From Pythium myriotylum (lineage: Eukaryota > Oomycota > Peronosporomycetes > Pythiales > Pythiaceae): 64,000 bases of DNA. Shown piece after piece: positions 3,665 to 34,422 of the stretch. The stretch's first letter is position 1, and each line of letters begins with the position of its first letter. Location of the stretch: positions 868,001 to 932,000 of the forward strand of contig JALJCQ010000016.1 of the NCBI GenBank assembly GCA_023091665.1. The letters run 5' to 3'. The notes beneath the pieces were generated by a model. The model was not told the origin of the DNA and ran no database searches. It saw only the letters and a list, made by a program, of their open reading frames with translations. The position numbers and the translations under genes were made by a program.

Positions 3665-4254
3665 AAGGCGCAATATCTCCGGGAAGGAGAGTCGCGATGT
3701 CCTGGTGTCGCTCGTTATCAGTCGGGTGGTGCTCTTCGCTGTTGGTCTTGGTGTCCATGGCTAAACATGCTGTGGCAAGAGTGTGAGTTTGATCGTGGCG
3801 GAGTGGAGCCGCCAAAGTAGTTCAGTACGCGTGAACGCGGCTATGACAAGACCGCGTATTGCAGTCGGAAGATCTTATGGAATGCGGTGAAAAGGATGAC
3901 CCGCCGAGGCTACAGGAATGGATCGCATCATTTATGGAGTGTGCGGCAGGAGACATGGTGGTCATCCACAGATCGACTGAAAGGATCGGGTTACAGCCAA
4001 GTGTAACCCACAACGTAACCAAGAATACGGTGTCATTCCCCGTGTCATTTCTTTGGAACACTTACACAGTATATGATTCCATATGGTTTGTACAACACTA
4101 TTTTTCATGATTTGTCCATTTCCATCGTCCATGTCTTTCCATGACGTAAGAAAGAAAACGAGGTTATATCGCCCTAAACCTCGCAGCTGCGACGTGGGGG
4201 GAAAATAACGACCCCAACCAAAACGATCCAACATCCAGCCAAGCGTCGGCGAAA
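3665..4254. other. Intergenic or degenerate sequence upstream of the Mutator-like element
   Basis: No supported gene. The first part may be decayed M64 sequence. The stretch 4110-4146, read on the opposite strand, resembles 10114-10142 beyond the 3' end of the Mutator-like element (shared words TCATGGAA and CATGGACG). This is a weak candidate for terminal repeats of that element. Confidence 0.3.
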
Positions 4255-9992: not shown

Positions 9993-11470
9993 CCGATCAA
10001 TGACTGCTCAATTAAAGAGTAATACACGTATCGTTTCGATTCCATTCTCTCCAAACGGACTCTATCTCGCGAGTAGAAGACGTTGCATTGACTGAAACGA
10101 TAGTCTTGGATTAATCATGGAAGTCATGGACGCTATGTGGAACACTCCTGACATTCTACCACTTGTTCATTACTCACACATTAATGCAGGACTCTACATG
10201 ACAGCTGTGGCCCAAAAGCTTCGCCTATAATCGCACACTAGAATGGGGGCCGTGTAGTCTCTGATCTTTGGGGCGTACGCGTAGGCGCTGACGTCTACTT
10301 GTCAGCTGTGGAGGGTGGGAGCAAGTCCTGTGACGTGTCCGTCCCATCGATATCGCTGTGTCATGAGGTTACAGCCCACAACAAGTAAGCTACAAGCGAG
10401 ATCTGACCGACACGTCAAATTTCCTTACCGGACTCAGCGACTCCCAGCCAGGAAATTCATCTAGACTCGCCGTCACGAGGAACCCCGTCACGAGGAACGG
10501 CGCTCGCGGGACAGGAGGGCGGTGAGCTTGCTCTTTTAATTCCTTTACTCGCCGGTCACGCGGCTGTCATGAAGCGGCGGCACGACGGGACTTCGACGAC
10601 TTCGTCGTGGCAGGACCGGAGGGGATCTGTGAGTGAGCTCAATGAAGACCGTTGAAGTTCCGTCAATTCACTCTGAATTGGGGACGATTCGATGAATCGC
10701 GTCGATATTGTAGTTTTCACACTCGTCTTCAAGCAGCGTAGTTTTCACTTTCACACATTTCGAGGAAAATGGAATTTATTTTCACTAAATTTCAACTATT
10801 TTACCAGGCTTTAGAGATTTTCCCCAATAATGGACAGGACAAGGTGAGAAAGGGACAAGGCATGAACTACAGTAAACAGAAGGAATCATGCACTGTAACA
10901 CTCGCCTTCTCTGAATCCCGATACCTGCGCATCTGGCGAAGAATGAGGGCGTTGTTCCCGATCAGTGTTAAGTCGTACCAATAGTTCTCCATCGCGGCTT
11001 GAAGGAGTCAGCGGGATTCGGCTTGGTTGTTGGGACCCGTATTTTAGAGCTTGCGGTCGATTTAAAAGTCAACCGCAAGCTCTGTTCATTCAGTGAACAA
11101 AGTAGGTACATCGTGAAATCAAGCAATTCTGCTGATGATCAAAATGCCTCTTGCCAATGTTTACGTTTACTGCACGTTACACTTCAAAATATTTGAGACA
11201 CAATCACGTTTCTCATTTGGTCCGTCAGCGGGCGGCTTTGTATACCAGCGTCTCACAGTGGGAATCTCGATGCAAAGGCTTCACACTGGGATAGGTTGAC
11301 TCGACTTGCAGTTTCGAGATTTGCGCAGGATAACATTCGTCCAACAAGTTTTCGTACGGGATCGACGATTGCTTGGGCCACGACGGTCTATCTGAGCTGA
11401 TGCGGTGTTAGCAAGTATGGTTTTAGTAGTACACACCAACAGACATGAATTCCAGTGTCGACTTCGGAAT
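9993..11470. other. Stretch without a supported gene; inverted repeats
   Basis: Two small ORFs (71 and 65 codons at 10769 and 10999) show no recognisable motif. Notable structure: a 12-bp perfect stem AGAGCTTGCGGT/ACCGCAAGCTCT with a 14-nt loop at 11046-11083, immediately followed by GTTCA/TGAAC (11084-11098). There are smaller perfect hairpins near 10665-10700, and a short direct repeat of CCGTCACGAGGAAC around 10474-10499. The last nine bases (11462-11470, CTTCGGAAT) are a target-site repeat of the TIR element. Confidence 0.5.
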
Positions 11471-12059
11471 GGAAGCGTCTAATACAGGTCAATTTGTGGG
11501 TCAGGTCAGCGTCTTTTCTATGCACACATCCACTTGGTCAGGCAACAGGTCACGTCGAGCCACGTGACCAATGGTCAGTGTCACTGCCGAGGTCAGACTT
11601 TTCACGCCGAAACAGACTTTCCACAGTCGAATAACCAACAAACCAATCAAACAAGAACAGGGGTCGACCTGCCGGCCAAGGAGGTCGCGCCCTCCCGAGT
11701 GCACGCGTTCGGCTGTGAGTCACGGCAACAGCGCGGCCTCGAGGAAACGCCCGAGGTCGCGCTCGCGCGTGGCCGAACGTCACCCCGGCCGCGGGTAGCG
11801 ATGGCGCGACCTCTGTCTAACGCCTTTGTGGGTGGTCGCGCTTGCGCGAGGCCTTGCGCCATCGCCGCCGCACGACCGCTACGGTGCGTGCGCGTTGCGC
11901 TTCGTCGTCGGTCACCCGGGAGAGCTGTGCGCGCGACCGCGGCTGCCCGCATAGCATTTTGAAGCAGCGACTGCAGCGACCGCGGGGCCGTTCGGACGGT
12001 CTGTCCACCAACTGGACCGGCGGTCGTGACGCTTCGTGTCTTCATCGGATTTTGGGGAG

Positions 12060-12128
12060 TGCTGCAGCAGGAGAACTACTAGGATCTACTAAGATGAACT
12101 CAATAGACTACACTTATATCATCATCAT
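12060..12128 (+). repeat. LINE 3'-end tail
   Basis: AACTCAATAGACTACAC is followed by an ATC-repeat tail (to about 12128). This is the same terminal module as at the 3' end of the long LINE, so it marks the end of a short LINE insertion inside the TIR element. The inverted second copy of the TIR element carries it too. Confidence 0.55.
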
Positions 12129-12590
12129 GCTGCCCTCTGTCGCGCGGGGTCGCTCTCGCCTGCGCCGTCACTCATGCTCGCGTTCCCAGTCTTCGTCCTC
12201 TGTCGCATGTGGCTCTAGTTCTCGGTCCACGTCACTGCACCATGCGAGGTTACGCGCCATTGGAGGGCTGCGAACTCACACACGTTCGCCGATGGCGACT
12301 CCATGCCGCCAATTCTCTCCAAAGCGCCTTCCGCCATTGCGTGCAGTTCCTCGTGCATACGCAAAACCTCTTGTTGGTGACGTAACACATGACAGCAACG
12401 TCAGACCTAGCAGTAACGCTGCCAACCGATTCAGCTCTCCTAAAGGCGGCGCTAACAGTTTCCTCTCGGTGGAGGGGCATCGCTGCCACGCCGTGTCCAA
12501 CCAAGGGCAAAAGGCACAAGGACAACAAGGGCGCGGATAGAGGAGGCTTCAGCCCGAGGACAGCAGCTTTAGTTCCTGCTCCTGCTCCTA

Positions 12591-12625
12591 ATGATGATGA
12601 TGAAGTCTATTGAGCGCAATTAATG
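12591..12625 (-). repeat. LINE 3'-end tail, minus orientation
   Basis: Read on the minus strand: GTACATTAATTGCG, then CTCAATAGACTTCA, then repeated ATC. This matches the 3' end of the long LINE almost base for base. It lies next to the G run of the TIR element. Confidence 0.6.
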
Positions 12626-12652
12626 TACCCTACTCCTGCTCCTAATCCGGCG

Positions 12653-12654
<2 letters not shown>

Positions 12655-12688
<34 letters not shown>
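12655..12688 (+). repeat. Poly-G tract (34 G)
   Basis: A homopolymer of 34 G by count. The equivalent site in TIR-element copy 2 has 25 (as C, 29321-29345). This accounts for the whole length difference between the copies. Confidence 0.9.
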
Positions 12689-12689
<1 letters not shown>

Positions 12690-12729
12690 ATGGGTGGCAG
12701 GATCCGAGGGTGCCTTCATCGCCATGGTT

Positions 12730-12950
12730 CATTAACTTGCGATCCAATAGACCTCACCTTCAAATTCAAAGCCAGAGTCATAGCCTTCAAAGTCAAATCC
12801 AAAGTCATAGCCACATTGGCGAAGTGGTCGGCCATTTTGTTGCCGGTCCGGAGTGTGTACCGGACCGTCACCAGAGCGAGGGAGCCCAGGAGTCGCGTTG
12901 TTCGCCGACGGTCTCGATCTAAAAGCCCGGATTTGCAGCTGGTGAGACCG
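12730..12950 (-). pseudogene. LINE RNase H fragment
   Basis: On the minus strand a frame reads RTGNKMADHFANVAM, the C-terminal signature of the RNase H domain of the local LINE family (compare HNNMADFAANVA at about 32380). It is followed by an imperfect repeat encoding alternating LTLKAM/LALNLK. It is a small broken piece inside the TIR element. Confidence 0.5.
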
Positions 12951-12970
12951 CTAAAAATGTTGTCACCCAG

Positions 12971-13558
12971 ATGCAAAATGAGATCTATTGGATCGCTATC
13001 TCCAACATCACGTTGCAATCAGGCTTGTGGTCGTCAGGGGAAGCATCCATCGTCTGGAGTTCAGCGGTCTGTCTTGACTCGAGCTCCATGACGCCCCACC
13101 AAGCTGCCTTCCAAGGTCTCCTTGCTGGCCTACAGGCCGCCCTATCACACCGCCTCGACCACGTTGAAGTAGGCGGCCCCAACGGCATTATCCTACGCCT
13201 TCTACGTACGCGACACCCGCCGCGTCGCCCTCACCTGCGTCGTCTCTACGACCAAGCACGCGCCCACGCCGATCGCCTCGGCATCTGCCGCTGGCACCAA
13301 CTCCCACGATCGGAGCTCACAATGGCGAACGCGCTGACCACCCACGCGATGAATTCGCGAGCCAGTACGCACGCCAATCACCCTACCTCTCTCGACGGCC
13401 ACTCTGACCTTCGACACATGCTCGCTACAGACCTGCGTCCGTGGTGGTCCACCCAGACCGACCACGCTGAGCGTTAGCAGGGTCCACACCGAGCCTCTCT
13501 AGCTATTAGGATTCACACTCATTGAACTCAATAGACTTCATTTGCATCATCATCAAAT
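12971..13558 (+). pseudogene. 5'-truncated LINE copy (RNase H end and 3' tail)
   Basis: The frame ending at 13477 encodes a degenerate LINE RNase H (HQAAFQGLLAGLQAAL, then RLYDQARAHADRLG and MANALTTHAMNSR). It aligns with the C-terminus of the long LINE's ORF2. The usual Glu (AEY) is AAF and the GDS Asp is changed, so it is inactive. The 3' module follows the stop (AGCTATTAG, then CTCAATAGACTTCA, then ATC repeats, 13501-13558). The same piece appears inverted in TIR-element copy 2. Confidence 0.7.
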
Positions 13559-13970
13559 CAGGCTTGTGGTGCGTCCCCACCGCCTTCAGAGAACTTTATC
13601 CGGACATTCGATACGATCTCCTGGGAGCAGGTGCAGCGCACTGAGCATGATGGAAGACGCAAACGCTTCCGGCAGCAGAATGCCACTCAATGACAACCCC
13701 CTCCCCCCAAGCTACGACACGTGTGGGCCTTTTCCGACCAGAAGTGCACGATTCCAGTGAAGATGGCTCGGGAGGCAGCGGAGTGGGATGATACTAAATA
13801 AATATATCGTGTGTAGTTGTGGGCGATATGGCCTTAGCAAGCACACCTATTTAGTATATTTCTGGGTCTGACCATCGATGACCGCGGCCCCTACAGGTCA
13901 CGCCGAGAACATAGAAAAGACTCTGACCTGACCACAAAATTGACCTGTTTTAGTCGCAACCAGGAGGGAT

Positions 13971-14297
13971 AATTTCTATTCAAATTCCAATCTGGCAAGG
14001 AGTTCGAGCCGACAAAACACGATTCAGCTCAATGAGAGCCTAAATTTTAAGTGTAGGAGGGTAAACAGATACCTGCACAAACTCGTCCGCATCATCTCGA
14101 GCACGAATTAACACAACCCCTCCGCACCTGACGTAATTCTTCATTCACACATGTATTCAAAAGAAAGACAGGGTATGAGTTGGTATTCATGGGACCCTAT
14201 GTTGGTGAAGAATGAACTTTGCAACGCCTTGGAGGTGTCGGCGCCTACAAAGGTGAGTTTAACGGTCCCAGGTTCGTGGTCGACCTCAGTTTGCATT
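13971..14297. other. Intergenic, 3' side of GH3 gene 1
   Basis: I see no gene or strong motif here. It is the 3' flank of the GH3 gene, which is transcribed leftward towards it. Confidence 0.4.
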
Positions 14298-16706
14298 TTA
14301 TAGGCTGGTGCTCACGCCGATGGTCGAGTTAGTGTCATCGCCCTCACTGATCGCGATCTGAATGCCCTGAACCACGGTTGTATCGTTCAGGCGGAATGGC
14401 ACCACGCTGTCAACGATCGAGAACTTAGCACACAGATCGCTACCCAGATTGTCACCGTATGGATCGCATACGGTCTCGGGCTTGATAGCGATCACATAGT
14501 CACCGTTCTCAGCCACGCGGTTGAACCCCTGGCTAATTTGCGGCTTGAATACGCTCCAATCCTTGTATGTGAGCTTGAACGAAACTGTCTTCGACTTGCC
14601 TGGTGACAACTCGATCTTGGCAAACTTCTTCAACATCTTGACCTCCGGCACCGACAGCGAGCGGTACGGCTGCGTGAGGAAGAGCATGACAGTCTCCTTG
14701 CCCTTGAGTTTGCCGCTGTTGGTCACGGTGACGCTGGCAGTGATCGTGTCCTTCTCACCGGACACAGTGCTCTTGGACAGCTTCAGGTTCGAGTACGTAA
14801 ACGTCGTGTAGCTGAGGCCCGTGCCAAAGTTCCACTCGGTCTCGCATGTGCTGTAGCCGCAAAGGGTGTTAACACGGTGGTTGTACTGGATATCAACGTT
14901 GGCCGGATGGTTTGGGTACGTGATCGGAAGACGGCCGCTCGGGTTGACCTTGCCGTAGATGATCTCGGCGATGGCCTGGCCACCGGCTTCGCAAGGTAAC
15001 ATGGCGTCGATAACCGCGTGGACTGAGGATGGCAGACCATTGAGCAGACGTGGACGGCCTCCCACCAGCACGACGATCACCTTGGTTCCCGTAGAGGCGA
15101 GCTGCTTGACATACTCGATCTGACCTGCAGGCAAGGCCAAGTCACCGATATCACCCGGCTTCTCGGCGTAAGTTGCCTCGCCAATGGCCACCACCGTGTA
15201 TTGAGCCTTCGCTGCGAGGGCTTTGGCCTTGTCGAGATCACCAGATGCGTAGGATCCGTCCGCGGCCAAGCCGTTGAAGTACGAAACCGACGAGTTCTTG
15301 CCACCACCAATCATCTCGAAGCCCTGCTTGATGGAAATGCCATTAGGGTACATCGTGTTACCCGAGTACCCTTGCCAGCCGAGCGACCACCCACCACAAA
15401 GGTTGCCAATGTCATCAGCGGAATGGCCCGACAGAAAGACGGACGCCGTCTGTGGGATAGGCAACGTGTTATCCTTGTTCTGGAGTAACACAATCGACTC
15501 GCGGGCGATATTGAGCGCGACGGCCCGGTCTTTGTCCTGGCCAACGTTCGCCACAGCCTTTTCTCCCGGCACCGGGACGTCGTAGAGACCGAGCTCGAGC
15601 TTGGTCTTCACAATTCGCTGGGCCGACTGACGGATCCGATCAAGGTACTCTGGGTGCGCCTTGAGCATATCTTTTGTGTAGTCGATGAATGACACGTCGT
15701 TTGGCACCATGCTCATATCGAGCGAAGTGTGAGTGAGCGCCATTCGCACGGCCTCAGCTCTCGTCTTGGCCACACGGTGGAAGCTGTGGAGGTTGTCGAT
15801 TTCGGCCCAGTCTGTGACGACAAAACCATCGAAGCCAATATCGTTACGGATGAGGTCGCGAAGGATCTTGGGGTTCGCCACGACAGGCACACCGTTGATC
15901 GACACGTAGTTCTCCATGGCGGTCTTGACACCGGCTTTGGTCGCTTCAATGAAGGGGAGAGCAAAGTAGTTGAGCAGATCGAAGTCCGAGATGGTAACGC
16001 CGTCACGGTCATAACCTGCCGGCGTCTTGGAGTAGCCGACGAAGTGTTTCATACACGCCGCGACCTCGTTCGTGGACTGGATGCCCTTGATGATGGCCGC
16101 TCCCATGGTCGCGACCAGGTACGGATCCTCGCCAAAGGTCTCGAAGGTTCGAGCCCAGAGCTTGTTCTGCGAGATTTCGAGAATCGGGCCGAAAGTCCAC
16201 GAAATTCCGGCCGCGACCGTATCTTGCGCGGTGATGGCTCCCATTTTGCGCACGAGGTCTGGGTTGAACGAGGCACCCGCGTTGATCTGTTGCGGGAAGA
16301 GCGTGGCGTTCTGCACGTAGTTGGCGCCGTGCACCGAGTCGATGCCGTAGATTACTGGGTGACCGCCGTTCTCTTTCATCGTGATCTCTTGGATCCGCTT
16401 GATGATTTGGCGATATTTCTCTGGTGAGCCGTTGAAAGTGCCGTTGACGAGTCCGAACGGACTACCGAGGTAGGAGCCGACACGTTGCTTGGCAAACTGA
16501 GCGACCTTGTCTTCGTCTAACGTGCCATCCGCCTTCATCACGTTGCCGACGCTCAGTTGGGTCATCTGGCCGACCATGTCGTCGACTGTGAACTTGGCGA
16601 CGATCGCGGCGGCACGTGCGTCCATCCCGGAGGCCCCCAGAGAGGCGGCGCTAGATAGGGCGATGGTGAGAGACGCGAGAAGCGGCGGGAGCCACGACTT
16701 GAGCAT
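14298..16706 (-). CDS. Secreted GH3 beta-glucosidase, gene 1
   Basis: A glycoside hydrolase family 3 enzyme of about 802 residues that would release terminal glucose from beta-glucosides such as cellobiose outside the cell. The chosen start (16706) gives a clear signal peptide (MLKSWLPPLLASLTIALSSA) and lies just behind the core promoter; an upstream in-frame Met at 16799 lies before the promoter motif. The N-terminal barrel has the KHFVGY motif and the nucleophile region GFVVTDWAEI. Next come the alpha/beta sandwich (VLLQNKDNTLPIP, GGRPRL) and a fibronectin III-like end (SYTTFTYSNLKLS). No intron or break is seen. The protein is identical to GH3 gene 2 (34423-36831) up to the VPEVKMLKKF motif, then differs in patches. 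Gene 3 (55093-57510) is clearly diverged. Confidence 0.95.
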   Translation of the reverse strand: MLKSWLPPLLASLTIALSSAASLGASGMDARAAAIVAKFTVDDMVGQMTQLSVGNVMKADGTLDEDKVAQFAKQRVGSYLGSPFGLVNGTFNGSPEKYRQIIKRIQEITMKENGGHPVIYGIDSVHGANYVQNATLFPQQINAGASFNPDLVRKMGAITAQDTVAAGISWTFGPILEISQNKLWARTFETFGEDPYLVATMGAAIIKGIQSTNEVAACMKHFVGYSKTPAGYDRDGVTISDFDLLNYFALPFIEATKAGVKTAMENYVSINGVPVVANPKILRDLIRNDIGFDGFVVTDWAEIDNLHSFHRVAKTRAEAVRMALTHTSLDMSMVPNDVSFIDYTKDMLKAHPEYLDRIRQSAQRIVKTKLELGLYDVPVPGEKAVANVGQDKDRAVALNIARESIVLLQNKDNTLPIPQTASVFLSGHSADDIGNLCGGWSLGWQGYSGNTMYPNGISIKQGFEMIGGGKNSSVSYFNGLAADGSYASGDLDKAKALAAKAQYTVVAIGEATYAEKPGDIGDLALPAGQIEYVKQLASTGTKVIVVLVGGRPRLLNGLPSSVHAVIDAMLPCEAGGQAIAEIIYGKVNPSGRLPITYPNHPANVDIQYNHRVNTLCGYSTCETEWNFGTGLSYTTFTYSNLKLSKSTVSGEKDTITASVTVTNSGKLKGKETVMLFLTQPYRSLSVPEVKMLKKFAKIELSPGKSKTVSFKLTYKDWSVFKPQISQGFNRVAENGDYVIAIKPETVCDPYGDNLGSDLCAKFSIVDSVVPFRLNDTTVVQGIQIAISEGDDTNSTIGVSTSL

Positions 16707-16740
16707 CGTTGTTGGGCTTGGAGTACTTGGGTGTGTTCTT

Positions 16741-16762
16741 CCGAGAAGATTGGAGAATGAGG
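16741..16762 (-). promoter_or_regulatory. Oomycete core promoter (Inr plus FPR) of GH3 gene 1
   Basis: On the minus strand the sequence CTCATTCTCCAATCTTCTC lies about 35-55 bp before the ATG. It fits the oomycete Inr/flanking-promoter consensus (YCATTYYN followed by CAWTTTNYY). The same motif stands at a similar distance in front of GH3 genes 2 and 3. Confidence 0.7.
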
Positions 16763-16944
16763 TGGTGACCTCAGAAGGATTTTTTGTCATAGAAAACATG
16801 CCGTCGAGTTCTACACGGGATAGGACCCGCTACTGGGACTGGATCATGCTTTGGACTTTTACCACGAAGAGACATGTGAAGACAGTGCAAGGTAAGTGAA
16901 GACTTCACGTGCCTCCGGCTGTCTTCCCGCAGGACTCGTGCGAA

Positions 16945-18029
16945 TGATGGGTAAGGTTGTTACCTAACTCACCGTGGGAATAGTTCTTAATGCTAGGATA
17001 GACATAAACGCATCTTTGTGTGTGGTAGACAGCAATATAGAGAGTAACTTGTGACTAGTGCGGGCAATGATGGGAGTTGAGGAGCAGACTGACATGACTT
17101 GATCTGCCGGAGGTGTGGCTGTCGGCGCCCAACATACTCACTACAACAAGACGACATTTAGTACACATGACGGAATTGGACAAAAGACATGTTTTGACCA
17201 GATATCTCAGTCAAATATTCAGGCAACCGCTGTTTCATCTTCTTGCGTGCATATACAGCGTTTGTTTCTGTACATTTTAATGTACGGACAGAAACATCGT
17301 GAAATGATTCTGGCATGACAGATTATGTTTGATTACGATAATTCCTTGTCACGTGCGTCAGGCATTTTTAACGTGAGCGAGGACATGTTAACTTGTCATA
17401 TGTACTTCAGTAATCTCACCTAATATCGGACGCCACAATTACTGGATGCATTCGGCCAGATCTGCTGCAGAAGGAGTTGCGCAATGTCCGCACATTTAAT
17501 GTATTAACGCATGGAAATTCATAAGAGGACAATGCTAATACAATGCAACGAACAGAGTCATGGCATTGTATGTCACAGGAAAGCCAGGCCTTCGTGACTA
17601 GGTCAGTAAACAATTTCCTGCGATCCCTTACCCAAGATATGGTCAACAAATTCCCACCCTTTCTTTGGGCAAGAGTGTGCATGAGGCTTTTGTACAATGC
17701 AGAAAAATATTTCGATGTGGTTAGTAATCCGGGTGAAATACCGATCTAGTCGATCTCAGCATCACAACGAGTAAGTTCGATCTCGCATATAATCATCCTC
17801 CTCACGATGTGTAAGGTTAGGCCCAAAATCTTGAAGACGCAAGATCTCTTTGGAGATGGATGCCGGATCCCACGGCTCAGCCCGCCAAGCTCACACCACC
17901 GTTTTCTTCAAGACGATCTCACTGGAGATGGATGCCGGATACCATGGTTCAGCCCGCCTAGCTCACTCCTACGGCGTAGGAAGTATAACTTTGCACAAAC
18001 CTTGCAGCTGACAGCATCCAGAATGGAGC
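16945..18029. other. Stretch without a supported gene; one imperfect duplication
   Basis: No coding region is supported. At 17832-17894 and 17907-17966 a segment of about 60 bp is repeated imperfectly in tandem (shared core TGGAGATGGATGCCGGAT, then TCAGCCCGCC). A nested inverted repeat (GTTTCTGT/ACAGAAAC around GTACATT/AATGTAC) lies at about 17264-17296. Confidence 0.45.
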
Positions 18030-18240
18030 TCGGGCTGTTTGAGGCATGTCGCGGGCGGATTCACCGGTATGCCACCACCATGTTCCACGACGAAACTACA
18101 TGGCTCCTCAACAATCCAAGCAGTCGACCTCAGACACGCATTACGAGCAGGGCACAAGATGGCGAAATACGTCGCAAACCAAGCCATGGGCCACCGTATT
18201 TCGCTTGAATCACAGCTCCATTGGACAACACTCGATGATC
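18030..18240 (+). pseudogene. Degenerate LINE RNase H fragment
   Basis: A frame reads RAGHKMAKYVANQAMGHR, resembling the C-terminal RNase H signature of the local LINE family (NMADFAANVA). The surrounding sequence is too decayed to align further. A small inverted repeat (CGACAGCCTG/CAGGCTGTCG) follows near 18400-18434. Confidence 0.4.
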
Positions 18241-18499
18241 ATATCATCACGTTCCTCCTCCACGACATATCCCACCAAACATCCTCCATCCGCTGTGGTC
18301 ACAATCTCATTACCGAAGTGGCAGCCGCCGTTCTCCGGCACCGGGTTTCAACAGACTACTCTCCGCCTAGCGAATAAGATACCACCCGCGTCCTGTAGGG
18401 TCGACAGCCTGGTAAAGGCCTACAGGCTGTCGGACGCTATTGGTAATACCAAATCGAGAAAAAATTTCTAACGTTACGATGGCGACATAGCACATCCTC

Positions 18500-19160
18500 C
18501 CACCCACAACTGGAGCATCTAGGGCGATCAGAAGATCCCGAAGCCGTGATCGCCTCAATAGATGCCGGCGGTTGTGCAGCCCAGTTGTTTCGGCCGCTGC
18601 ACCCAGCATATACCCGCTTAGCAAGATCCCACACCCAAAGAACACTCCCCACCAAGCTGTGCGAAATTCACCAAAAGCATCGCCAGTCACGTGTATTCGC
18701 GAGATGACTGGCGCAGAGGCAAACGTCGCTATGGATTCCATGCGTAGCCTTAGTGTTGCGCCGCACTTCCTCTGACGACAGATTTCCAACCCTGTGAATC
18801 CCGTCACACAAACGATCTAAAGAACGTGTAAGAAAGGCATCTCATCTGCCAATTAAGGGACGGCTTGTCTGCATCCTCGCAGGAAGCACCACAGACCAGG
18901 AGGCTGGTTGACCTCGTCCAAGTCGCGTGCTCGCACTCCATGGTAGCTATCCACTAGCCACCGCGTCGACCAGTCATGGGTCGTTAGATGAATAGTAATC
19001 ACCCCGTCGATCTCAATAGATTTCACTTCGAAACGAACTTTCTGACACCACAAGGTCCGCTCATCCCATAGGCGACTCACGCGCCTGAAATTGCCACCAT
19101 TGAGCATCGTCTATGGAGCGAACTTATTGTACCCTAGTTGCTGGGGCTCTATACGTTCCA
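18500..19160. other. Decayed repeat-derived sequence
   Basis: No intact gene. The word CTCAATAGATTTCACTTCG near 19012 is a weakened form of the LINE 3' tail module, so at least part of this stretch is likely old LINE sequence. Confidence 0.3.
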
Positions 19161-19164
19161 TCAC

Positions 19165-19197
19165 TACGGATAGTCAACTTGAAGTTGACTATCCGTA
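19165..19197. repeat. Perfect 33-bp palindrome with 1-nt centre
   Basis: Left arm TACGGATAGTCAACTT, single centre base G, right arm its exact reverse complement. It lies in a gene-free stretch, so a transcription terminator of a neighbouring gene is not an obvious explanation. A second, looser one with 9-bp arms (AATGCTCAA/TTGAGCATT) is at 19687-19711. Confidence 0.9.
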
Positions 19198-19199
19198 TC

Positions 19200-19999
19200 C
19201 CTTCTTCAAGGTAGAAGGCCTCCACAGCAAGCATGGCCCCAACGCAGTAGCGCCTTCCACCTCTCCATATCAAAAGCTATATTCGTTCACGCTGATGTAA
19301 CATAAGAGGCATCACTTTCCTCATCATCACCAACATCCTGTGGCTGAGTAAGCTGTGTACCATTGTGTTGATTGGTGCTGCACATGATGTCGCCTTGGCG
19401 TAGTATATCCGCAATAGGAGTGAAGTACCCGCGTAGCTTGCAAGAAGGGTGATGCCCACGGAGTTGGTGTAGATGAGGGCGCTAAGCCACAAATAACAGT
19501 TGTGTCGCCCCTGCCGTTGTACAGCTTAGATGTCTTGTCAGGAAGCCATGGAATTTTGCTTTAGTTGTTTGTTGTCATCGGGCTACGGAGAAGTAGTGAG
19601 TCAGCGCTTGCTTGGCTATGACCGCTCCAGCGCCTCGGGACAGGGCTTTCACGAAAACTGACCCGATCTGTCGTGTCCAATCATGCAATGCTCAAGAGCA
19701 ATTTGAGCATTCTGTTTTCCACTAAATTCAATCCAGAAGTAGAGAAGTGGTTATATTCAGGATACCGATGATTGGCAGAAGTATCTAATAGATTGATTCC
19801 AAGGCACTCTTTTCAAGTAGTTCGTGTTGGGGCTTTGTGTTCACAATACAATGCGGATCTCGTTGTGCATAAACGATACATGACTCGTTATGGACTGAGG
19901 AGAATGTATGGATTAGAGTTTCCAGTATGTATGGTTGTTCCCGGCGGAGAATGCCACAAGCACTTTACGACTGTTATAGTGGCCGCGTGTCAGAGATTT
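19200..19999. other. Intergenic, 3' side of the arginine deiminase gene
   Basis: No supported gene apart from small chance ORFs. It forms the 3' flank of the deiminase gene on the minus strand. Confidence 0.4.
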
Positions 20000-21329: not shown

Positions 21330-21759
21330 TATGGTATGTCCAGGTGCTGGTTGCGATGCAAGTTTGCAAGTGAGTATATTTTGTCGCCACAAGTTTGGTC
21401 CTAGTTCCTACTGCCGCTGGGGTACATGGAAGAGGGCGCCCTCATGGGGACCATGGGGCGTCCTCTGTGGCGAGTTGATGAGTCGCGCCGTGATGATGCT
21501 GCTGCTGCCAGGCGCACTCGTGCTGCGGGCAAAATGATGCCGTTCATGATGGTGCTGATCATGATGGTGCTGATCATGATGATGCTGTTCCTGATGATGC
21601 TGATCCTGATAATGCTGTTCATGCTGTTGTAGTGTTCATGCTATTGGTTGTTGATGCTGTTGGTTGTTGCTGTTCATGCTGTTGGGAATGGTTGCTACGA
21701 TAGTGGTTGCTGGCCGAGTGATCGGCTTGAACATGCTGAGTGAAGGTCGACACTCCACA
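21330..21759 (-). repeat. 3' LTR of the inserted Ty3/gypsy element (430 bp)
   Basis: On the minus strand the LTR starts TGTGGAGTGTCGACC and ends CATACCATA. It is preceded by a G-rich stretch (GGGGGGTGTTG) that would serve as the polypurine tract. It contains a tandem repeat around 21540-21610 (units of ATGATGGTGCTG type) with one 15-bp unit more than the 5' LTR. Confidence 0.92.
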
Positions 21760-21809
21760 ACACCCCCCAAAGTCGATCACTCAAAATCACCCAAATGTAT
21801 CCATGTTCG

Positions 21810-24800
21810 TCACAGCTGATTTGTAACCATGGTGTTACAAGTGGGCAATGGCATTTTCAAGTGCGGGTACATCCCGAGCCGTGATGTAGGCGCGCACGAG
21901 CACAGGCACATCCGAGTACATGTCCTGGAGTGGCTCCCACGAGTCTTCGTCGGCTTCAAGGCCACGCCACGCCACCAAAAGCTCCCACTGGCGTGTGGTG
22001 TTGTTGCGGCGATGATCGCGGATCTCGCGGACGGCCATGGTGAGCCCCTGGTGGGCGACATGGCGGCGGATCTCTTCTGTCTCGCATCGTGGTAGAACTT
22101 GAGACGCGTCGCGTGGACCTCGTAGCGCTCGTTGGTCAATATGTGTTGGATCACGTATGAGTAAGGGAGCGTCTCAGCGACGCGGAAAGGGCCCACCCAG
22201 CGGACCATGAGCTTGTTGCCGTCCAGGCGGCTGTCAACGCGTGACCAGAGTACATAGTCTCCGACATGGAAGTTGCTAGTGGTCCCGTGCTTCTTGCTGG
22301 CCATCTGTTGGAGGCGGCGCTTCTCCTTGGCGTCCACCGCGTCCCGGTGCCACCCTGCGAGGCTAGCTCGCAGTTTCTCCAGCGCGGGAGCCGCCACCAC
22401 GACGTCGATCGCGCGTACGCTGAGCTCATCGCTCGCCACAGTCGGGCGGAGGATCGTGTCGAGCGCAGTCGCTGCGGACAGACCCGTGAAGAGCTCGACC
22501 GGAGCTCTGCCGGCCAGGCTTGCGACGGGAGCATGATTCAAATTCGCTTGCACTATAGGAAGGATGTAGCGCCAGCTCTTCGTGTCCAGTTGCGCCTCTA
22601 GAAGCAGTGCGCGGATCACCTGTAGTATATCGCGGTTGAGACGCTCAACCGTACCATTCAACCATGGGGAGTAGACTGGAGTGAACGCCTGGACCCCCTT
22701 TAGCCGCTCACTCAACGTAGCCATGAGGGCGTTTTTAAAATGGCTGCCTTGGTCGGATTGCCATTTCTTGGCTGCCCCGTAACGCTTGTACCAGTCAAGG
22801 ATGGCTTCTGCAGCGGTGTCACTTGTTGGTGAGTCACAGGGCACCAGTTCACAAAAGTGGGTAAGTTCGTCCTTGAGGGCAAGGAGATATTTTTCGGTGC
22901 CGTATGATGGCCCCATGAACAGATAGTCCATGTGGAGCACCTCGTTGCGCTCAGTTGCTGCGTTGTGGTCGCCCCAATGGCGCTGCACGAGCTTCCCGCC
23001 CTTAATGTGCTTGCACAGCAAGCACTTCTGGTGGAACCGACGCACGTGCTGAGTTGCACGGTCTATAGAGTAGTGTTGATTCAGCTGGTTCAACATGATG
23101 TCCTCGCCGCGGTGGCCTTGGACACCGCAGTGTGCGACGATCAGAATGCGTTGGAGTAGCTCGTTGTCTGTCGTAGGGATCCACAACTTGCCGTCAACTA
23201 GAATCATTTCGCCCTCTCGTGCATAATCGGTACCATCCAGGTCCCTGAGGTGTAGTTGCTGTGCGGCGGTCACGGCGGCCACGGTTGGCCACTCAAACGT
23301 GTCGTCCTGGAGCGGTCTGAGCTCAGAGACGTGGCCCTGCGCCCGGGTACGAACCACCCGCACCGCTACCTCACGCTCGTGCTCGTGCTCGCGTTCGGCA
23401 CGGGGTCCCCACCTGGACACCATGTCCGCCCATACGTTGTCACTACCCCGAATGTGCTCGATCTCATACTTGAGGCCCACCAGTTTGAACGACCACCTCT
23501 GTAGCTTTCCTCGTACGTGTTGCTTCATCTCTGTGTCGTTGTCAAATACTTTGATCAAATTAGCGTGGTCGCAGAACATGCGAAAACCGTTCGGTCGTTG
23601 GAGCAAATATTCGAGATCACCGCATGCGCGCACTATTGGGTAGGCCTCTTTCTCGATAACAGACCAGTTCACTTGCGCGCCACGGAAACATCCGCCTTTG
23701 CAGATTAACAGCTCGTGCTTTTGTTGCACAACGGGCTCACTCGCGTCCCACTGACGGACTTGAGTCACTATGGCAGCCCATCCTAGATCCGAGGCGTCTG
23801 TGAAAAGACAGACCTCCGCGTCTGCATGGGGAAACACTAGCTCGTTCGGGCTCGCCAGCACGCGTTTAGCGTTCTCATAGGAATCAATCTCTTCATCGGA
23901 CCAGGATAGTGTCACCTTCTTAGCCTCCCGTGCCTTCTTACTGTGGTTCTTGAGCGACAGGTCAAGCTTGTGCTGGAGTGGCTCGAAGATGCGAGCGTAG
24001 TCGACGACAGACTCACGCATCCACCCAGCAGCACACAGGAAGTACTGCAATTCACCAGCGTTCGCCGGCAGTGGCAGACTGGTCAGTGCCTTGACGCGGT
24101 CGGGGTCTTGCTGCATGCCATCGCCACTAATCACACGTCCGCACCAGGTCACACTCTTCGCATAAACCGTGCTCTTCGGTGCGCTCAACCTCAGGTTGTA
24201 TCGACGGAGTTTCAAAAAGAATGCGCGTAGGTTGTCAAGGTAATCCTCATCACTCGATCCGTATACTACGACGTCATCAATCCAGATGATCACGCTGTGA
24301 TAGAGTTCGTCCGCGAACACCGTCTGCATCTGGCTCTGGAAATGGAGCGGTGAGTCCATCGCGCCTTGCGGCACTCTTAATGGAGTGTAGACGCCGTCAT
24401 CGGTCATAAAACTGAATTGCTCCTGGCAGCTAGGGTCCAAAGGGAACTGCCAAAAGCCTTTGAAGAGATCGAACTTTCCCAGCGCCCTGGCTCCCCGAAC
24501 ACGGTCCTTCGCTTTCGCAAGGTCAGGCATGGTGCCAGCTATCGGTACGGTCATAGCATTCACCGGTCGATAGTCGTTGACGATCCTGAAGTCGTTCTCT
24601 GATCCGCTCTTCTTCACCAATATAGTTGCTGACGCCCACTTGCTGTGATTATTCTTCTTGATCATGCCAAACCGCTCTAGGTCCTCAACATATTTCCGCA
24701 TGAATTCGCTCTGCGCCTCAGGATAGCGCCTCTGGCGGCACCTATGCGGTGGGGCGTCCTCCTTGAACGTCACACGGAGTGGATCAACGTCAGCCGCAGC

Positions 24801-26351
24801 GTCAGGGCCCAAGCGAACTCGGAAGATGTCACTAAACGACCACAGGAGAGTCTTCAGTCGCGGTAGGAGCCGCGGCGGAAATCCGTTGTTGATGGCGTCA
24901 CTCAACATACCGTGCATCAGGGCTTCGATCTCGCCTTCGCGGTCCTCACCAATGATGACGCCATCTGGGATGTCGTCGCCATCGTCAGCTTGGCGACGGG
25001 CCAATTGCTCGAACATGCCATCCACATCGATGCCAAGGCTTTCCAGGGTCGGCCTGCCCATTAAGAAGGAGTCATCGTTGCCCTCGAGCACAAGGCAGGA
25101 GACGCGGCGGACGTTTACGTTGCCTGCCGGGGTCCCGATCTTCAGATCCACCTCACACTTATGTGTGCACAGGTCTCGCTTCCCTCCCGCTGTCTCTATG
25201 GTCACAGGCTCATCAAGCTTCTTGTAAGTTGGCAGGATATCTAAATCGCGCATCTCGTTCACTGCCTGCCGGGGAATCAAGTTGCACTCGGCGCCGGTGT
25301 CAGCGACAAAGGGAAGTTCGAACACGTCATTAATAATGACCATGCTGCGGCCCGGCTCACTGCCGGCCACTCGCAGGGTCTTGACCTGGACGTGGCGGGC
25401 AGCCTTGACCTTTCTCATAGCAGCAGTCGCTGCCTTCTTGTCTTCTTCGGACGCGGTCGGGCAATCACGAAGCCAGTGGTCACCTTTACAGTGCCAACAC
25501 CCAGTGCGCGGCGCACGAGAAGCTTCTGTGAGAAAAGGGACGGTGCGCGGCGGTTGTGGTGTCGGCAGAGTAGCAGCGCCAGCGGGAGCCGCAGCACGCG
25601 GCGCACTTCGCCTCGACTCGACTTGGCGCCTCCCATTCGCCTCGGCGCTCATAACGTGGTAGTTCTGCTGCTCCCTGGCTCGCTCGAGCACCAGGTCGAA
25701 CAGCGCAAGGTCGCTCGTCTTCGCAGCGCGGTGCTGGAATGCGACCAGGCGTTGGACCTCGGTTCTCAAGGCAGGCGGCTCTAGGTTGGCCGTCAAGATG
25801 CGGCAGCGGTCCTTCATCTTGTTCTTGTAGTCATCAGCAGTCGAGCTCGTAGTACCTAGTAGGTCCTTGAGACCCTTCTCCTCGATAATGCGATCGAAGT
25901 CACCGAAGTAGTTAACCAACCGTGCTTCAACGTCAGCCATGGACATGTTCATCTTCAGATGGCGACGGAACAGGTCGTCGATGTCCGGTATGTGGCGGTT
26001 CTGCAGCTCGTTACATCGCTGCTTGATCTTATTCATGATTTCCTCATCCGTCGCTAGCTCCTCATCCACTCGGAGGATATACTTGAAGAGCTGGTCGAGA
26101 AGGCGAGTCTCGATTGACGAGCGCACGCTCGCCATCACGGCCTCGACGGCCTCGTTAGTGACGGCGCATCGCTCCACGATCCGGCGCTCATACTGTAGGC
26201 GATCACGGTGCCACTGCACCAGACTTGGTTGGTCCCACGAGGTCAAGCGAGGGGCCTTGATGAACTCGAACACAGGCGGCGCATTCATTTCGACGTCGCC
26301 GTCCTTGTCGACACGGCCAGGCGGCATCGCGCGGGCGAGGGTTGCTTCCAC
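21810..26351 (-). CDS. Ty3/gypsy gag-pol polyprotein
   Basis: A 1513-codon frame starting 60 bp inside the 5' LTR. In order it holds a gag region, a CCHC zinc knuckle (CWHCKGDHWLRDC), an aspartic protease (FVADTGAE), reverse transcriptase (FDLFKGFWQFP, active site IIWIDDVVVYG), RNase H (LFTDASDLGWA), an HHCC zinc domain (HCGVQGHRG, CLLCKHIKGG) and the integrase core (LHMDYLF, WQSDQGSHF, NGTVERLNRD). The C-terminal chromodomain (LLVAWRGLEADEDSWEPL) lies in another frame at about 21835-22075. A one-base shift near 22075-22088 thus replaces the natural C-terminus, and the last 85 or so residues of this frame are nonsense. A sequencing error at that point would look the same. Confidence 0.93.
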   Translation of the reverse strand: MEATLARAMPPGRVDKDGDVEMNAPPVFEFIKAPRLTSWDQPSLVQWHRDRLQYERRIVERCAVTNEAVEAVMASVRSSIETRLLDQLFKYILRVDEELATDEEIMNKIKQRCNELQNRHIPDIDDLFRRHLKMNMSMADVEARLVNYFGDFDRIIEEKGLKDLLGTTSSTADDYKNKMKDRCRILTANLEPPALRTEVQRLVAFQHRAAKTSDLALFDLVLERAREQQNYHVMSAEANGRRQVESRRSAPRAAAPAGAATLPTPQPPRTVPFLTEASRAPRTGCWHCKGDHWLRDCPTASEEDKKAATAAMRKVKAARHVQVKTLRVAGSEPGRSMVIINDVFELPFVADTGAECNLIPRQAVNEMRDLDILPTYKKLDEPVTIETAGGKRDLCTHKCEVDLKIGTPAGNVNVRRVSCLVLEGNDDSFLMGRPTLESLGIDVDGMFEQLARRQADDGDDIPDGVIIGEDREGEIEALMHGMLSDAINNGFPPRLLPRLKTLLWSFSDIFRVRLGPDAAADVDPLRVTFKEDAPPHRCRQRRYPEAQSEFMRKYVEDLERFGMIKKNNHSKWASATILVKKSGSENDFRIVNDYRPVNAMTVPIAGTMPDLAKAKDRVRGARALGKFDLFKGFWQFPLDPSCQEQFSFMTDDGVYTPLRVPQGAMDSPLHFQSQMQTVFADELYHSVIIWIDDVVVYGSSDEDYLDNLRAFFLKLRRYNLRLSAPKSTVYAKSVTWCGRVISGDGMQQDPDRVKALTSLPLPANAGELQYFLCAAGWMRESVVDYARIFEPLQHKLDLSLKNHSKKAREAKKVTLSWSDEEIDSYENAKRVLASPNELVFPHADAEVCLFTDASDLGWAAIVTQVRQWDASEPVVQQKHELLICKGGCFRGAQVNWSVIEKEAYPIVRACGDLEYLLQRPNGFRMFCDHANLIKVFDNDTEMKQHVRGKLQRWSFKLVGLKYEIEHIRGSDNVWADMVSRWGPRAEREHEHEREVAVRVVRTRAQGHVSELRPLQDDTFEWPTVAAVTAAQQLHLRDLDGTDYAREGEMILVDGKLWIPTTDNELLQRILIVAHCGVQGHRGEDIMLNQLNQHYSIDRATQHVRRFHQKCLLCKHIKGGKLVQRHWGDHNAATERNEVLHMDYLFMGPSYGTEKYLLALKDELTHFCELVPCDSPTSDTAAEAILDWYKRYGAAKKWQSDQGSHFKNALMATLSERLKGVQAFTPVYSPWLNGTVERLNRDILQVIRALLLEAQLDTKSWRYILPIVQANLNHAPVASLAGRAPVELFTGLSAATALDTILRPTVASDELSVRAIDVVVAAPALEKLRASLAGWHRDAVDAKEKRRLQQMASKKHGTTSNFHVGDYVLWSRVDSRLDGNKLMVRWVGPFRVAETLPYSYVIQHILTNERYEVHATRLKFYHDARQKRSAAMSPTRGSPWPSARSAIIAATTPHASGSFWWRGVALKPTKTRGSHSRTCTRMCLCSCAPTSRLGMYPHLKMPLPTCNTMVTNQL

Positions 26352-26411
26352 TTGCGAGATTAGTTTTGCTTGCTGGATTGCTTGCTAACTGGCGTAAGCC
26401 AAAGAATTCTT

Positions 26412-26826
26412 TATGGTATGTCCAGGTGCTGGTTGCGATGCAAGTTTGCAAGTGAGTATATTTTGTCGCCACAAGTTTGGTCCTAGTTCCTACTGCCGCT
26501 GGGGTACATGGAAGAGGGCGCCCTCATGGGGACCATGGGGCGTCCTCTGTGGCGAGTTGATGAGTCGCGCCGTGATGATGCTGCTGCTGCCAGGCGCACT
26601 CGTGCTGCGGGCAAAATGATGCCGTTCATGATGGTGCTGATCATGATGGTGCTGTTCCTGATGATGCTGATCCTGATAATGCTGTTCATGCTGTTGTAGT
26701 GTTCATGCTATTGGTTGTTGATGCTGTTGGTTGTTGCTGTTCATGCTGTTGGGAATGGTTGCTACGATAGTGGTTGCTGGCCGAGTGATCGGCTTGAACA
26801 TGCTGAGTGAAGGTCGACACTCCACA
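26412..26826 (-). repeat. 5' LTR of the inserted Ty3/gypsy element (415 bp)
   Basis: Same sequence as 21330-21759 minus one 15-bp repeat unit. Its right side touches the target repeat CGACC (26827-26831). Its inner end is followed by the primer-binding region (TTGGCTTACGCC on the minus strand), whose tRNA I cannot identify. Confidence 0.92.
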
Positions 26827-27424
26827 CGACCTCGTCGACGCCAGTTTCGTTGCCGTCGGTTACAGTGAAGCGCACTTGGATATGGCCATCCCAAACAGTA
26901 GCATCGGTCACGAGGTGGCGCGAGTCGATGCCGAGCTTGAGCCCGTTACGAAGCGACGTTGCATTAAAGCGAAACTCGGGGTCCACAAATGTCCAATTCT
27001 GTCCGTCCGATTGCCAGAATATCCGCACGAGGGAAGTGTGTTTCTCCGGATAAGAAGCTACGAACCCGAAGGCGTTGTCGCTGATGTCTCGCAGAGGCAA
27101 AGTTCGGATGGGTGCGAGGAGCTCCGGGGAGACAACAGAATCTCCAGAGGCGTCGTTACAAGCTGCCAATTCGACATTTGTAAGGCGGCTGCCGACAGCA
27201 TCAACTGCCGGACAGCGGTCAAGCGAGTCGCCGATGTTCGGGAGGAAGATGGCGCCCCGCTGCTTCGACCAGATGTATTTGGCTGCAAGGTCCGAATTGC
27301 CGACCATGTCAACCACACCATCGCGGTTCGTGTCGGCACGTATGTCGGGTGGAGTCGTCAGCGCGAGCACTGGCACTGCGGACAGTGCGAGCGCGACCAC
27401 GAGTGGGACCTGGCATGGGTGCAT
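26827..27424 (-). pseudogene. Secreted protein-arginine deiminase, N-terminal part (gene split by Ty3/gypsy)
   Basis: Begins with a signal peptide (MHPCQVPLVVALALSAVPVL), then a calcium-binding-like motif DTNRDGVVD and the conserved stretch RGAIFLPNIGDS, both typical of PAD middle domains. The frame is open up to the retrotransposon junction at 26827. A core-promoter-like CAATTTTCTC lies on the minus strand at 27477-27486, about 55 bp before the ATG. The catalytic part is at 20000-21329. Transcription through the retrotransposon is unlikely to give a complete enzyme. Confidence 0.85.
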
Positions 27425-28047
27425 CGGAGCTGGCTTGGCTGGGAGTAGACGCTTGGTTGTTGGTGGAGTGATCGCAGAGAAAATTGTGCAATGGTCCTGA
27501 CTTCAGACATCGCATGTTGCTGCAGGACCCTTGTGTTGAATCTGTCTTTTTTGAAAGGGACGAAAACCGGCGATGGGGTGGTGAGAGGAGCGGAGTGCAA
27601 CATCTGAACGCATACCCGCGACATGGATCAGTCACGTGAGATATGCCGACTAAGTACTTGGATCGAAAATATGGCTGACTTGAGCATGCGAGCAACGACA
27701 CACGCCACGCATACTGTAAATGAAACGATAAACTCTACTCTTCATGATTAGAATAAAATTTTCCCTGACTAATCTGTTGAGAGACCATAGGTGGAGCAAT
27801 TGCGGAAGCAGAAATCCGTGTGACAGACTTTAGCATGTTGCAGTCAGACGAACGAGCTCAACTCGATCCTTCAGTTGTCATAGGAAGCTGTCTCACCGCA
27901 CTCTCCGCAGCTGAAATCTGTTGGGTCGGTGGGTGGTGGGGGACAAATCCGTATAATAGTCATATGGCTCCGTTCATCCTCATACGCAAATGCCGCGCGT
28001 TGCATTGGAAGCTTTGGATATTTATATCCAGTCAGTTTATTCCGAAG
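27425..28047. other. Intergenic, 5' side of the arginine deiminase gene
   Basis: Holds the deiminase promoter (FPR-like CAATTTTCTC at 27477-27486, minus strand). No other gene is supported. The last nine bases (28039-28047, ATTCCGAAG) are the reverse complement of the 9-mer left of TIR-element copy 1. Confidence 0.5.
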
Positions 28048-30529
28048 GGTTGCGACTAAAACAGGTCAATTTTGTGGTCAGGTCAGAGTCTTTTCTATGT
28101 TCTCGGCGTGACCTGTAGGGGCCGCGGTCATCGATGGTCAGACCCAGAAATATACTAAATAGGTGTGCTTGCTAAGGCCATATCGCCCACAACTACACAC
28201 GATATATTTATTTAGTATCATCCCACTCCGCTGCCTCCCGAGCCATCTTCACTGGAATCGTGCACTTCTGGTCGGAAAAGGCCCACACGTGTCGTAGCTT
28301 GGGGGGAGGGGGTTGTCATTGAGTGGCATTCTGCTGCCGGAAGCTTTTGCGTCTTCCATCATGCTCAGTGCGCTGCACCTGCTCCCAGGAGATCGTATCG
28401 AATGTCCGGATAAAGTTCTCTGAAGGCGGTGGGGACGCACCACAAGCCTGATTTGATGATGATGCAAATGAAGTCTATTGAGTTCAATGAGTGTGAATCC
28501 TAATAGCTAGAGAGGCTCGGTGTGGACCCTGCTAACGCTCAGCGTGGTCGGTCTGGGTGGACCACCACGGACGCAGGTCTGTAGCGAGCATGTGTCGAAG
28601 GTCAGAGTGGCCGTCGAGAGAGGTAGGGTGATTGGCGTGCGTACTGGCTCGCGAATTCATCGCGTGGGTGGTCAGCGCGTTCGCCATTGTGAGCTCCGAT
28701 CGTGGGAGTTGGTGCCAGCGGCAGATGCCGAGGCGATCGGCGTGGGCGCGTGCTTGGTCGTAGAGACGACGCAGGTGAGGGCGACGCGGCGGGTGTCGCG
28801 TACGTAGAAGGCGTAGGATAATGCCGTTGGGGCCGCCTACTTCAACGTGGTCGAGGCGGTGTGATAGGGCGGCCTGTAGGCCAGCAAGGAGACCTTGGAA
28901 GGCAGCTTGGTGGGGCGTCATGGAGCTCGAGTCAAGACAGACCGCTGAACTCCAGACGATGGATGCTTCCCCTGACGACCACAAGCCTGATTGCAACGTG
29001 ATGTTGGAGATAGCGATCCAATAGATCTCATTTTGCATCTGGGTGACAACATTTTTAGCGGTCTCACCAGCTGCAAATCCGGGCTTTTAGATCGAGACCG
29101 TCGGCGAACAACGCGACTCCTGGGCTCCCTCGCTCTGGTGACGGTCCGGTACACACTCCGGACCGGCAACAAAATGGCCGACCACTTCGCCAATGTGGCT
29201 ATGACTTTGGATTTGACTTTGAAGGCTATGACTCTGGCTTTGAATTTGAAGGTGAGGTCTATTGGATCGCAAGTTAATGAACCATGGCGATGAAGGCACC
29301 CTCGGATCCTGCCACCCATTCCCCCCCCCCCCCCCCCCCCCCCCCAACGCCGGATTAGGAGCAGGAGTAGGGTACATTAATTGCGCTCAATAGACTTCAT
29401 CATCATCATTAGGAGCAGGAGCAGGAACTAAAGCTGCTGTCCTCGGGCTGAAGCCTCCTCTATCCGCGCCCTTGTTGTCCTTGTGCCTTTTGCCCTTGGT
29501 TGGACACGGCGTGGCAGCGATGCCCCTCCACCGAGAGGAAACTGTTAGCGCCGCCTTTAGGAGAGCTGAATCGGTTGGCAGCGTTACTGCTAGGTCTGAC
29601 GTTGCTGTCATGTGTTACGTCACCAACAAGAGGTTTTGCGTATGCACGAGGAACTGCACGCAATGGCGGAAGGCGCTTTGGAGAGAATTGGCGGCATGGA
29701 GTCGCCATCGGCGAACGTGTGTGAGTTCGCAGCCCTCCAATGGCGCGTAACCTCGCATGGTGCAGTGACGTGGACCGAGAACTAGAGCCACATGCGACAG
29801 AGGACGAAGACTGGGAACGCGAGCATGAGTGACGGCGCAGGCGAGAGCGACCCCGCGCGACAGAGGGCAGCATGATGATGATATAAGTGTAGTCTATTGA
29901 GTTCATCTTAGTAGATCCTAGTAGTTCTCCTGCTGCAGCACTCCCCAAAATCCGATGAAGACACGAAGCGTCACGACCGCCGGTCCAGTTGGTGGACAGA
30001 CCGTCCGAACGGCCCCGCGGTCGCTGCAGTCGCTGCTTCAAAATGCTATGCGGGCAGCCGCGGTCGCGCGCACAGCTCTCCCGGGTGACCGACGACGAAG
30101 CGCAACGCGCACGCACCGTAGCGGTCGTGCGGCGGCGATGGCGCAAGGCCTCGCGCAAGCGCGACCACCCACAAAGGCGTTAGACAGAGGTCGCGCCATC
30201 GCTACCCGCGGCCGGGGTGACGTTCGGCCACGCGCGAGCGCGACCTCGGGCGTTTCCTCGAGGCCGCGCTGTTGCCGTGACTCACAGCCGAACGCGTGCA
30301 CTCGGGAGGGCGCGACCTCCTTGGCCGGCAGGTCGACCCCTGTTCTTGTTTGATTGGTTTGTTGGTTATTCGACTGTGGAAAGTCTGTTTCGGCGTGAAA
30401 AGTCTGACCTCGGCAGTGACACTGACCATTGGTCACGTGGCTCGACGTGACCTGTTGCCTGACCAAGTGGATGTGTGCATAGAAAAGACGCTGACCTGAC
30501 CCACAAATTGACCTGTATTAGACGCTTCC
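28048..30529 (-). mobile_element. Non-autonomous TIR element, copy 2 (inverted relative to copy 1)
   Basis: Reverse complement of 11471-13961. By eye the copies match throughout; I noticed one base change (within a frame near 28354) and the shorter homopolymer (25 C at 29321-29345). It carries the same LINE fragments in mirror order (28453-28510 tail; RNase H pieces to about 29320). The right flank is ATCCCTCCT (30530-30538), the reverse complement of the 9-mer right of copy 1. Neither copy therefore has a matching direct repeat of its own. Confidence 0.9.
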
Positions 30530-30539
30530 ATCCCTCCTG

Positions 30540-34366: not shown

Positions 34367-34388
34367 GCTCATTCTCCAATCTACTCGG
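34367..34388 (+). promoter_or_regulatory. Oomycete core promoter (Inr plus FPR) of GH3 gene 2
   Basis: GCTCATTCTCCAATCTACTC, about 37-55 bp before the ATG at 34423. It differs from the motif of GH3 gene 1 by one base. Upstream of it the two genes diverge for about 110 bp and then become similar again. Confidence 0.7.
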
Positions 34389-34422
34389 AAGAACACACCC
34401 AAGTACTCCAAGCCCAACAACG

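Follow-up and report, generated by a model that had tools for sequence, protein, structure and literature searches.

How do two copies of one transposable element come to carry each other's target duplications? The question is raised by a stretch of 64,000 nucleotides from Pythium myriotylum (contig JALJCQ010000016.1, positions 868,001 to 932,000), hereafter the window, in which two inverted copies of a Mutator-like transposon (MULE) enclose an interval with a GH3 gene (Table 1). Read in the orientation of the element E itself, copy 1 is x-E-y and copy 2 is y-E-x, where x and y are the 9-mers CTTCGGAAT and AGGAGGGAT. A sequence-only reading of the window had described these flanks as crosswise identical. 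Re-reading confirmed this exactly, and the suspicion that the 9-mers might be frequent chance words was dispelled: each of them stands at its two places and nowhere else in the window. When up to 13 bases are tested, the longest match between the head of one copy and the tail of the other is 9 for both joints. The copies differ by one substitution and by 9 G in a poly-G tract, the odd base being private to copy 1 among the seven family copies compared.

As argued below, the inversion of the interval is well supported, and the explanation that we favour, with about two chances in three, is that a single transposase event starting from one copy made the inversion and the second copy together.

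The element family

Judged by its terminal inverted repeats (TIRs), its target duplications and the MULE-type transposase found in its relatives, the family is a MULE of an oomycete, and it is recently active. The outer motif is identical at both ends of its elements. Target duplications of 8 to 9 bp accompany 32 of the 40 complete copies (one with a mismatch); MULE target duplications in general span 8 to 11 bp. A domain search of the window copies returned no match to the MULE domain (PF10551), and they are therefore taken as non-autonomous. The same domain scores above cut-off inside five relatives that have the same ends, each about 2.9 kb long, whose open reading frames (ORFs) measure 325, 504, 919, 944 and 969 amino acids, three of them thus exceeding 900. 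When the 914-residue ORF of one relative was scanned alone, FLYWCH was above cut-off and MULE just below it (25.9 versus 27.6 bits).

Flanks across the genome

The ends of the family were located genome-wide by a TIR pattern, which gave 89 ends and 0 in the control. Flanks were read for 86 ends, 46 of them heads and 40 tails; a further end that was read (C12:4101211) and the variant ends C17:256917 and C30:611344 stand outside the flank count. A variant TIR pattern returned 2 ends only. The 86 ends resolve into 40 complete copies, which leaves 6 heads that have no tail closer than 10 kb. A search with an inner motif gave 95 matches (controls 0 and 1), of which 8 lie at places new relative to the TIR pattern; the seven of these that were read appear degenerate and were left out of the complete copies and of the pairing.

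An exact 9-bp duplication flanks 22 of the complete copies, an exact 8-bp duplication 9, and a 9-bp duplication with one mismatch a single copy, while 8 have none. Six of these 8 form three close inverted pairs, at the window (C16), on C24 and on C11, and the other two are orphans. The family tally is therefore three inversions beside 32 ordinary insertions and two orphans. All three complete pairs closer than 15 kb are inverted and exchanged (two fully, C11 on one side), and no such pair, in either orientation, retains its own duplications. Four further pairs, at 36-68 kb, show no exchange. Random placement predicts 0.40 pairs closer than 15 kb, for which the Poisson probability of three or more is 0.008, a value that speaks to clustering and not to mechanism.

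One might suppose that the flanking words resemble each other by chance, an explanation to which we give practically no weight. For the 1560 ordered pairs that different complete copies can form, the expected numbers of exact head-tail matches are 0.006 at 9 bp and 0.024 at 8 bp. Four 9-bp matches and one 8-bp match are seen, all of them within the three close pairs, and two of the 9-bp matches belong to the window pair.

Table 1. Coordinates of the window features, and of the close pairs and orphan copies of the family
Feature	Position	Strand or orientation	Gap	Remarks
Target duplication x, outer left (CTTCGGAAT, 9 bp)	11462..11470	+		
MULE copy 1, 2491 bp	11471..13961	+		ends GGAAGCGTC... 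/ ...GTCGCAACC
Target duplication y, inner left (AGGAGGGAT, 9 bp)	13962..13970	+		
Inverted interval minus 9-mers	13971..28038	.		basis: 9-mer flanks, GH3 strand
GH3 gene 1	14298..16799	- (+ once flip undone)		within inverted interval
Protein-arginine deiminase (PAD) gene	20000..21322	-		within inverted interval
Long terminal repeat (LTR) retrotransposon	21330..26826	-		within inverted interval
Second copy of x, inner right (CTTCGGAAT)	28039..28047	-		
MULE copy 2, 2482 bp	28048..30529	-		
Second copy of y, outer right (AGGAGGGAT)	30530..30538	-		
C16 pair (window)		inverted	14,087	both 9-mers exchanged
C24 pair	569287-569688 / 575261-575662	inverted	5,573	402-bp copies; both 9-mers exchanged
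C11 pair	349747-352241 / 354273-357104	inverted	2,032	one 8-mer exchanged, other joint unmatched
Orphan copy, C3	2473411-2475993			no own duplication or partner
Orphan copy, C12	4011708-4015181			no own duplication or partner

Evidence that the intervals are inverted

The flips can be checked on sequence that does not belong to the element. The 402-bp MULE pair at C24:569287-575662 splits an ALDH3-like gene: the N-terminal part of an aldehyde dehydrogenase (ALDH) is encoded in the flank to the left of the pair, and the remainder lies on the other strand at the far end of the interval. When the halves are rejoined, the frame is open across the joint, and the two pieces align side by side on 6 of the 6 oomycete homologues tried. 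The nearest matches of a protein on C24, among the best 120 of 7985, are from Pythium, Globisporangium, Lagenidium and Phytophthora, with a top identity of 62%, which points to an oomycete host that is itself absent from these matches. A contiguous paralogue at 547 kb, about 22 kb off, matches the halves at 197/200 and 181/200, and on it the alignments of the two pieces overlap in exactly the 9-mer. ALDH3-like paralogues at C24:539823-541208 and 547638-549065 have no stop in the match, and one at 545493-546905 has a stop. For the C11 pair, paralogues on C19 and C12 pass without a break from the end of the interval to the reversed left flank, with GCTTCGCT present just once between them. The C24 and C11 paralogues thus present an element-free, unflipped joint at one of the two breakpoints each; they are not the progenitor.

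In the window itself the check comes from the GH3 genes. Undoing the flip moves GH3 gene 1, by arithmetic, to about 25210-27711 on the + strand. This is the strand of GH3 gene 2, from which it would then lie about 4 kb away, the element not counted, so the tandem argument of the sequence-only reading holds; the two proteins are 98% identical. A paralogous element-free site or second haplotype was found neither for the inner right flank (26/26 candidates scored, leaving aside two 52-58 bp matches close to the joint) nor for the outer right flank (40 of 220 scored); on the left only the outer flank was searched, at 10909-11400 and so ending 70 bases before copy 1, and it had no other match among 40 of 388 scored. 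Across x, the rejoined window sites carry frames of only 80-114 amino acids, and across y none longer than 60. Real inversions are well supported.

An error of assembly across inverted near-identical repeats would imitate the signature, and short reads, if used, could be misled by repeats of 2.5 kb. Such an error seems to us very improbable. Neither the window nor the loci fetched, which amount to 261,664 bases with overlaps counted repeatedly, contain any N, and the 58.7 Mb of the assembly lie in just 55 contigs. The sequence-only reading had left it undecided whether the flip was biological, polymorphic or technical; the technical option is now judged unlikely, because the same signature occurs at 402-bp repeats 5.6 kb apart on C24 and because a simple mis-join does not produce the half-exchanged C11 pair.

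Crossover or transposase

Two routes lead to the observed flanks. In the one favoured here, there would at first have been a single MULE copy, either at x or at y. Once this copy had been replicated, the transposase would have joined one 5' and one 3' end to a target some 14 kb along the same chromosome. The two ends might have belonged to different sister copies, as in hybrid-element or sister-chromatid transposition, or to a single copy within a replicative intermediate, alternatives that are indistinguishable here. In one insertion orientation, the DNA between donor and target would be inverted and a second, inverted copy would appear at its far end, the old and the new 9-bp duplications being distributed crosswise, as A-x-E-y-(C reversed)-x-(E reversed)-y-D. 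Insertion the other way round would give a deletion or a circle. The inverted copies with crosswise duplications at both breakpoints that hybrid element insertion or replicative adjacent inversion would leave are seen fully in the C16 and C24 pairs, and on one side in the C11 pair. The two orphans would fit the expected sister product, an adjacent deletion.

The other route is a homologous crossover between two neighbours inserted separately in opposite orientation, their own duplications being exchanged by the crossover. It would yield the same flank signature (PMC2775673), and pairing would be favoured by near-identical partners. However, a local jump followed by a crossover would be required three times, all within about one substitution, and one of the three repeats is just 402 bp long. 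The fact that no complete pair closer than 15 kb has kept its own duplications also speaks against it: given random orientation and 50% flipped, three inverted and flipped pairs out of three have a probability of 1/64, or of 1/8 if deletion removes direct pairs. We consider this route unlikely, though clearly not negligible. Of the proposal in the sequence-only reading that a crossover between the copies flipped the interval, the flip has thus gained support from the exchange in three close pairs, while the crossover has become one of two possible causes. The same reading held that the ancestral state could not be decided, a view that we no longer share: since the present order is derived in both models, the ancestral order can be inferred.

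The similarity of the partners bears on the choice. They differ at 1/2482, 1/2492 and 1/402 sites in the three pairs, and the 2.5-kb copies of five loci at 20-105 sites; in each of the 2.5-kb pairs, one partner alone carries the odd base. No chimerism between partners was seen, a comparison with little power at one substitution per pair. The second C11 copy also has an insertion of roughly 340 bp near its 3' end (about 354337-354668) that is absent from its partner. The single-event model is preferred because the partners are one substitution apart and, above all, because no complete close pair retains its own duplications. That the copy and the flip arose in one event, and through the transposase, is our inference.

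Several observations weigh against this preference. The sample consists of three pairs. One of them, on C11, is half exchanged and so needs an extra loss at one joint; at this other joint three paralogues were read, none of which continues into the right flank, and since this pair was counted as flipped, the values 1/64 and 1/8 flatter the case somewhat. An inverted pair on C17 (2025 and 2583 bp, gap 19,883) retains its own duplications. A degenerate tail with the orientation of the C12 orphan stands 2.3 kb past it, so that this orphan may derive from a direct pair. With one difference per pair a chimera would not be visible, and all that near-identity shows is a close sister relation between partners. 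Even this is weak for the 402-bp pair, because C11:1224266, an unlinked copy, has the same sequence as one of the two partners and hence is equally close. A second MULE family, of which a genome-wide search with ends from copies on C3 and C1 gave 6 heads and 5 tails, has no close pair, and as no two of its heads share a contig it is uninformative on mechanism.

Finally, the repeats of this genome appear to undergo homologous exchange, which lends the crossover some plausibility. The GH3 paralogues, now inverted, share a tract of 2112 bp (window 14634-16745 and 34384-36495) that is perfectly identical and has diverged borders, probably the trace of a recent gene conversion. Apparently solo LTRs point the same way: when 40 of the 388 candidates for a 1063-bp LTR-like repeat were scored, 25 proved to be further full-length copies. 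Three same-strand pairs of these are spaced by 11-12 kb and one by 6 kb, so that many of the copies look solo. A crossover between the GH3 genes themselves was considered as a cause of the flip and rejected, since it would not exchange duplications at the MULE ends.

We lean, somewhat less firmly than for the window event itself, towards the broader view that the MULE transposase of this oomycete makes local inversions as a regular by-product of single-copy transposition. If this is true, each such jump adds a copy and turns over nearby genes, once splitting an ALDH gene, and the family would be one origin of the small inversions and broken genes of oomycete genomes. Pairs that flank an inversion and have exchanged their duplications would then be a direct, readable record of non-standard transposition, and counting close pairs with exchanged versus own duplications would be a cheap genome-wide test.

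Other features of the window and the genome

The retrotransposon within the inverted interval has LTRs at about 21330-21759 and 26412-26826, 97% alike, and a polyprotein ORF at 21810-26351; from its domain order we take it to be of the Gypsy type. To the left of copy 1, at about 4066-10906, lies a large MULE of a different kind. Of its ORFs, one is ZSWIM-like/MULE (7049-8056) and one encodes an Ulp1 protease (8520-9992). A long TIR was not found for this element, and it is interrupted by the 1063-bp repeat (5783-6845), which is solo-LTR-like here.

Outside the window, C3:1039200-1044200 contains an inverted duplication with arms of 509 bp and a spacer of 82 bp. A MULE of the second family sits in one of the arms, and the other appears to hold the empty site (31-bp match). 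Repeats of about 158-375 bp are clustered at C11:278794-382345, C19:238854-260234 and C28:95083-119841; several form inverted pairs 2-3 kb apart, resembling long-TIR elements.

Comparison with known systems

MULEs are widespread, and whether they transpose by excision or by replication is debated. Bacterial replicative transposons (Tn3, IS26, Mu) make adjacent inversions, for which the same flank arithmetic follows from one copy. Replication through the element is known there, whereas in this MULE family it is only proposed.

Hybrid element insertion has been described for the P element of Drosophila, and alternative or sister-chromatid transposition for Ac/Ds of maize; impala of Fusarium and Sleeping Beauty are named alongside them (PMC2775673, PMC8225341). 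The product predicted in Figure S1 A of PMC2775673, an inversion between identical inverted copies with the duplications crosswise, corresponds to the flank pattern of the window. For P and Ac/Ds the outcome was established from genetics or defined alleles, whereas the window case is read from sequence, in another superfamily and another host. The same ambiguity between two routes was described for inversion 2z3 of Drosophila buzzatii, associated with Galileo, together with a means of discriminating between them: identical copies indicate hybrid element insertion and chimeric copies ectopic recombination. The Galileo copies are chimeric, so that a crossover was inferred (PMC2775673). Galileo belongs to the P superfamily and makes 7-bp duplications; the family studied here is a MULE, and its partners are one substitution apart.

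A MULE has been tied to rearrangement before. In clementine, CitMule is associated with an inverted segment of 6926 bp, itself repeated, and with a large deletion that, according to the authors, fits neither homologous recombination nor alternative transposition (PMC4334395); exchanged duplications were not seen in the excerpts of that report. Nor did a literature search, with subscription journals mostly outside its scope and papers covered in part, bring up a MULE inversion with exchanged duplications. If the single-event reading is true, the hybrid-end or replicative outcome of P, Ac/Ds and the bacterial elements extends to the Mutator superfamily.

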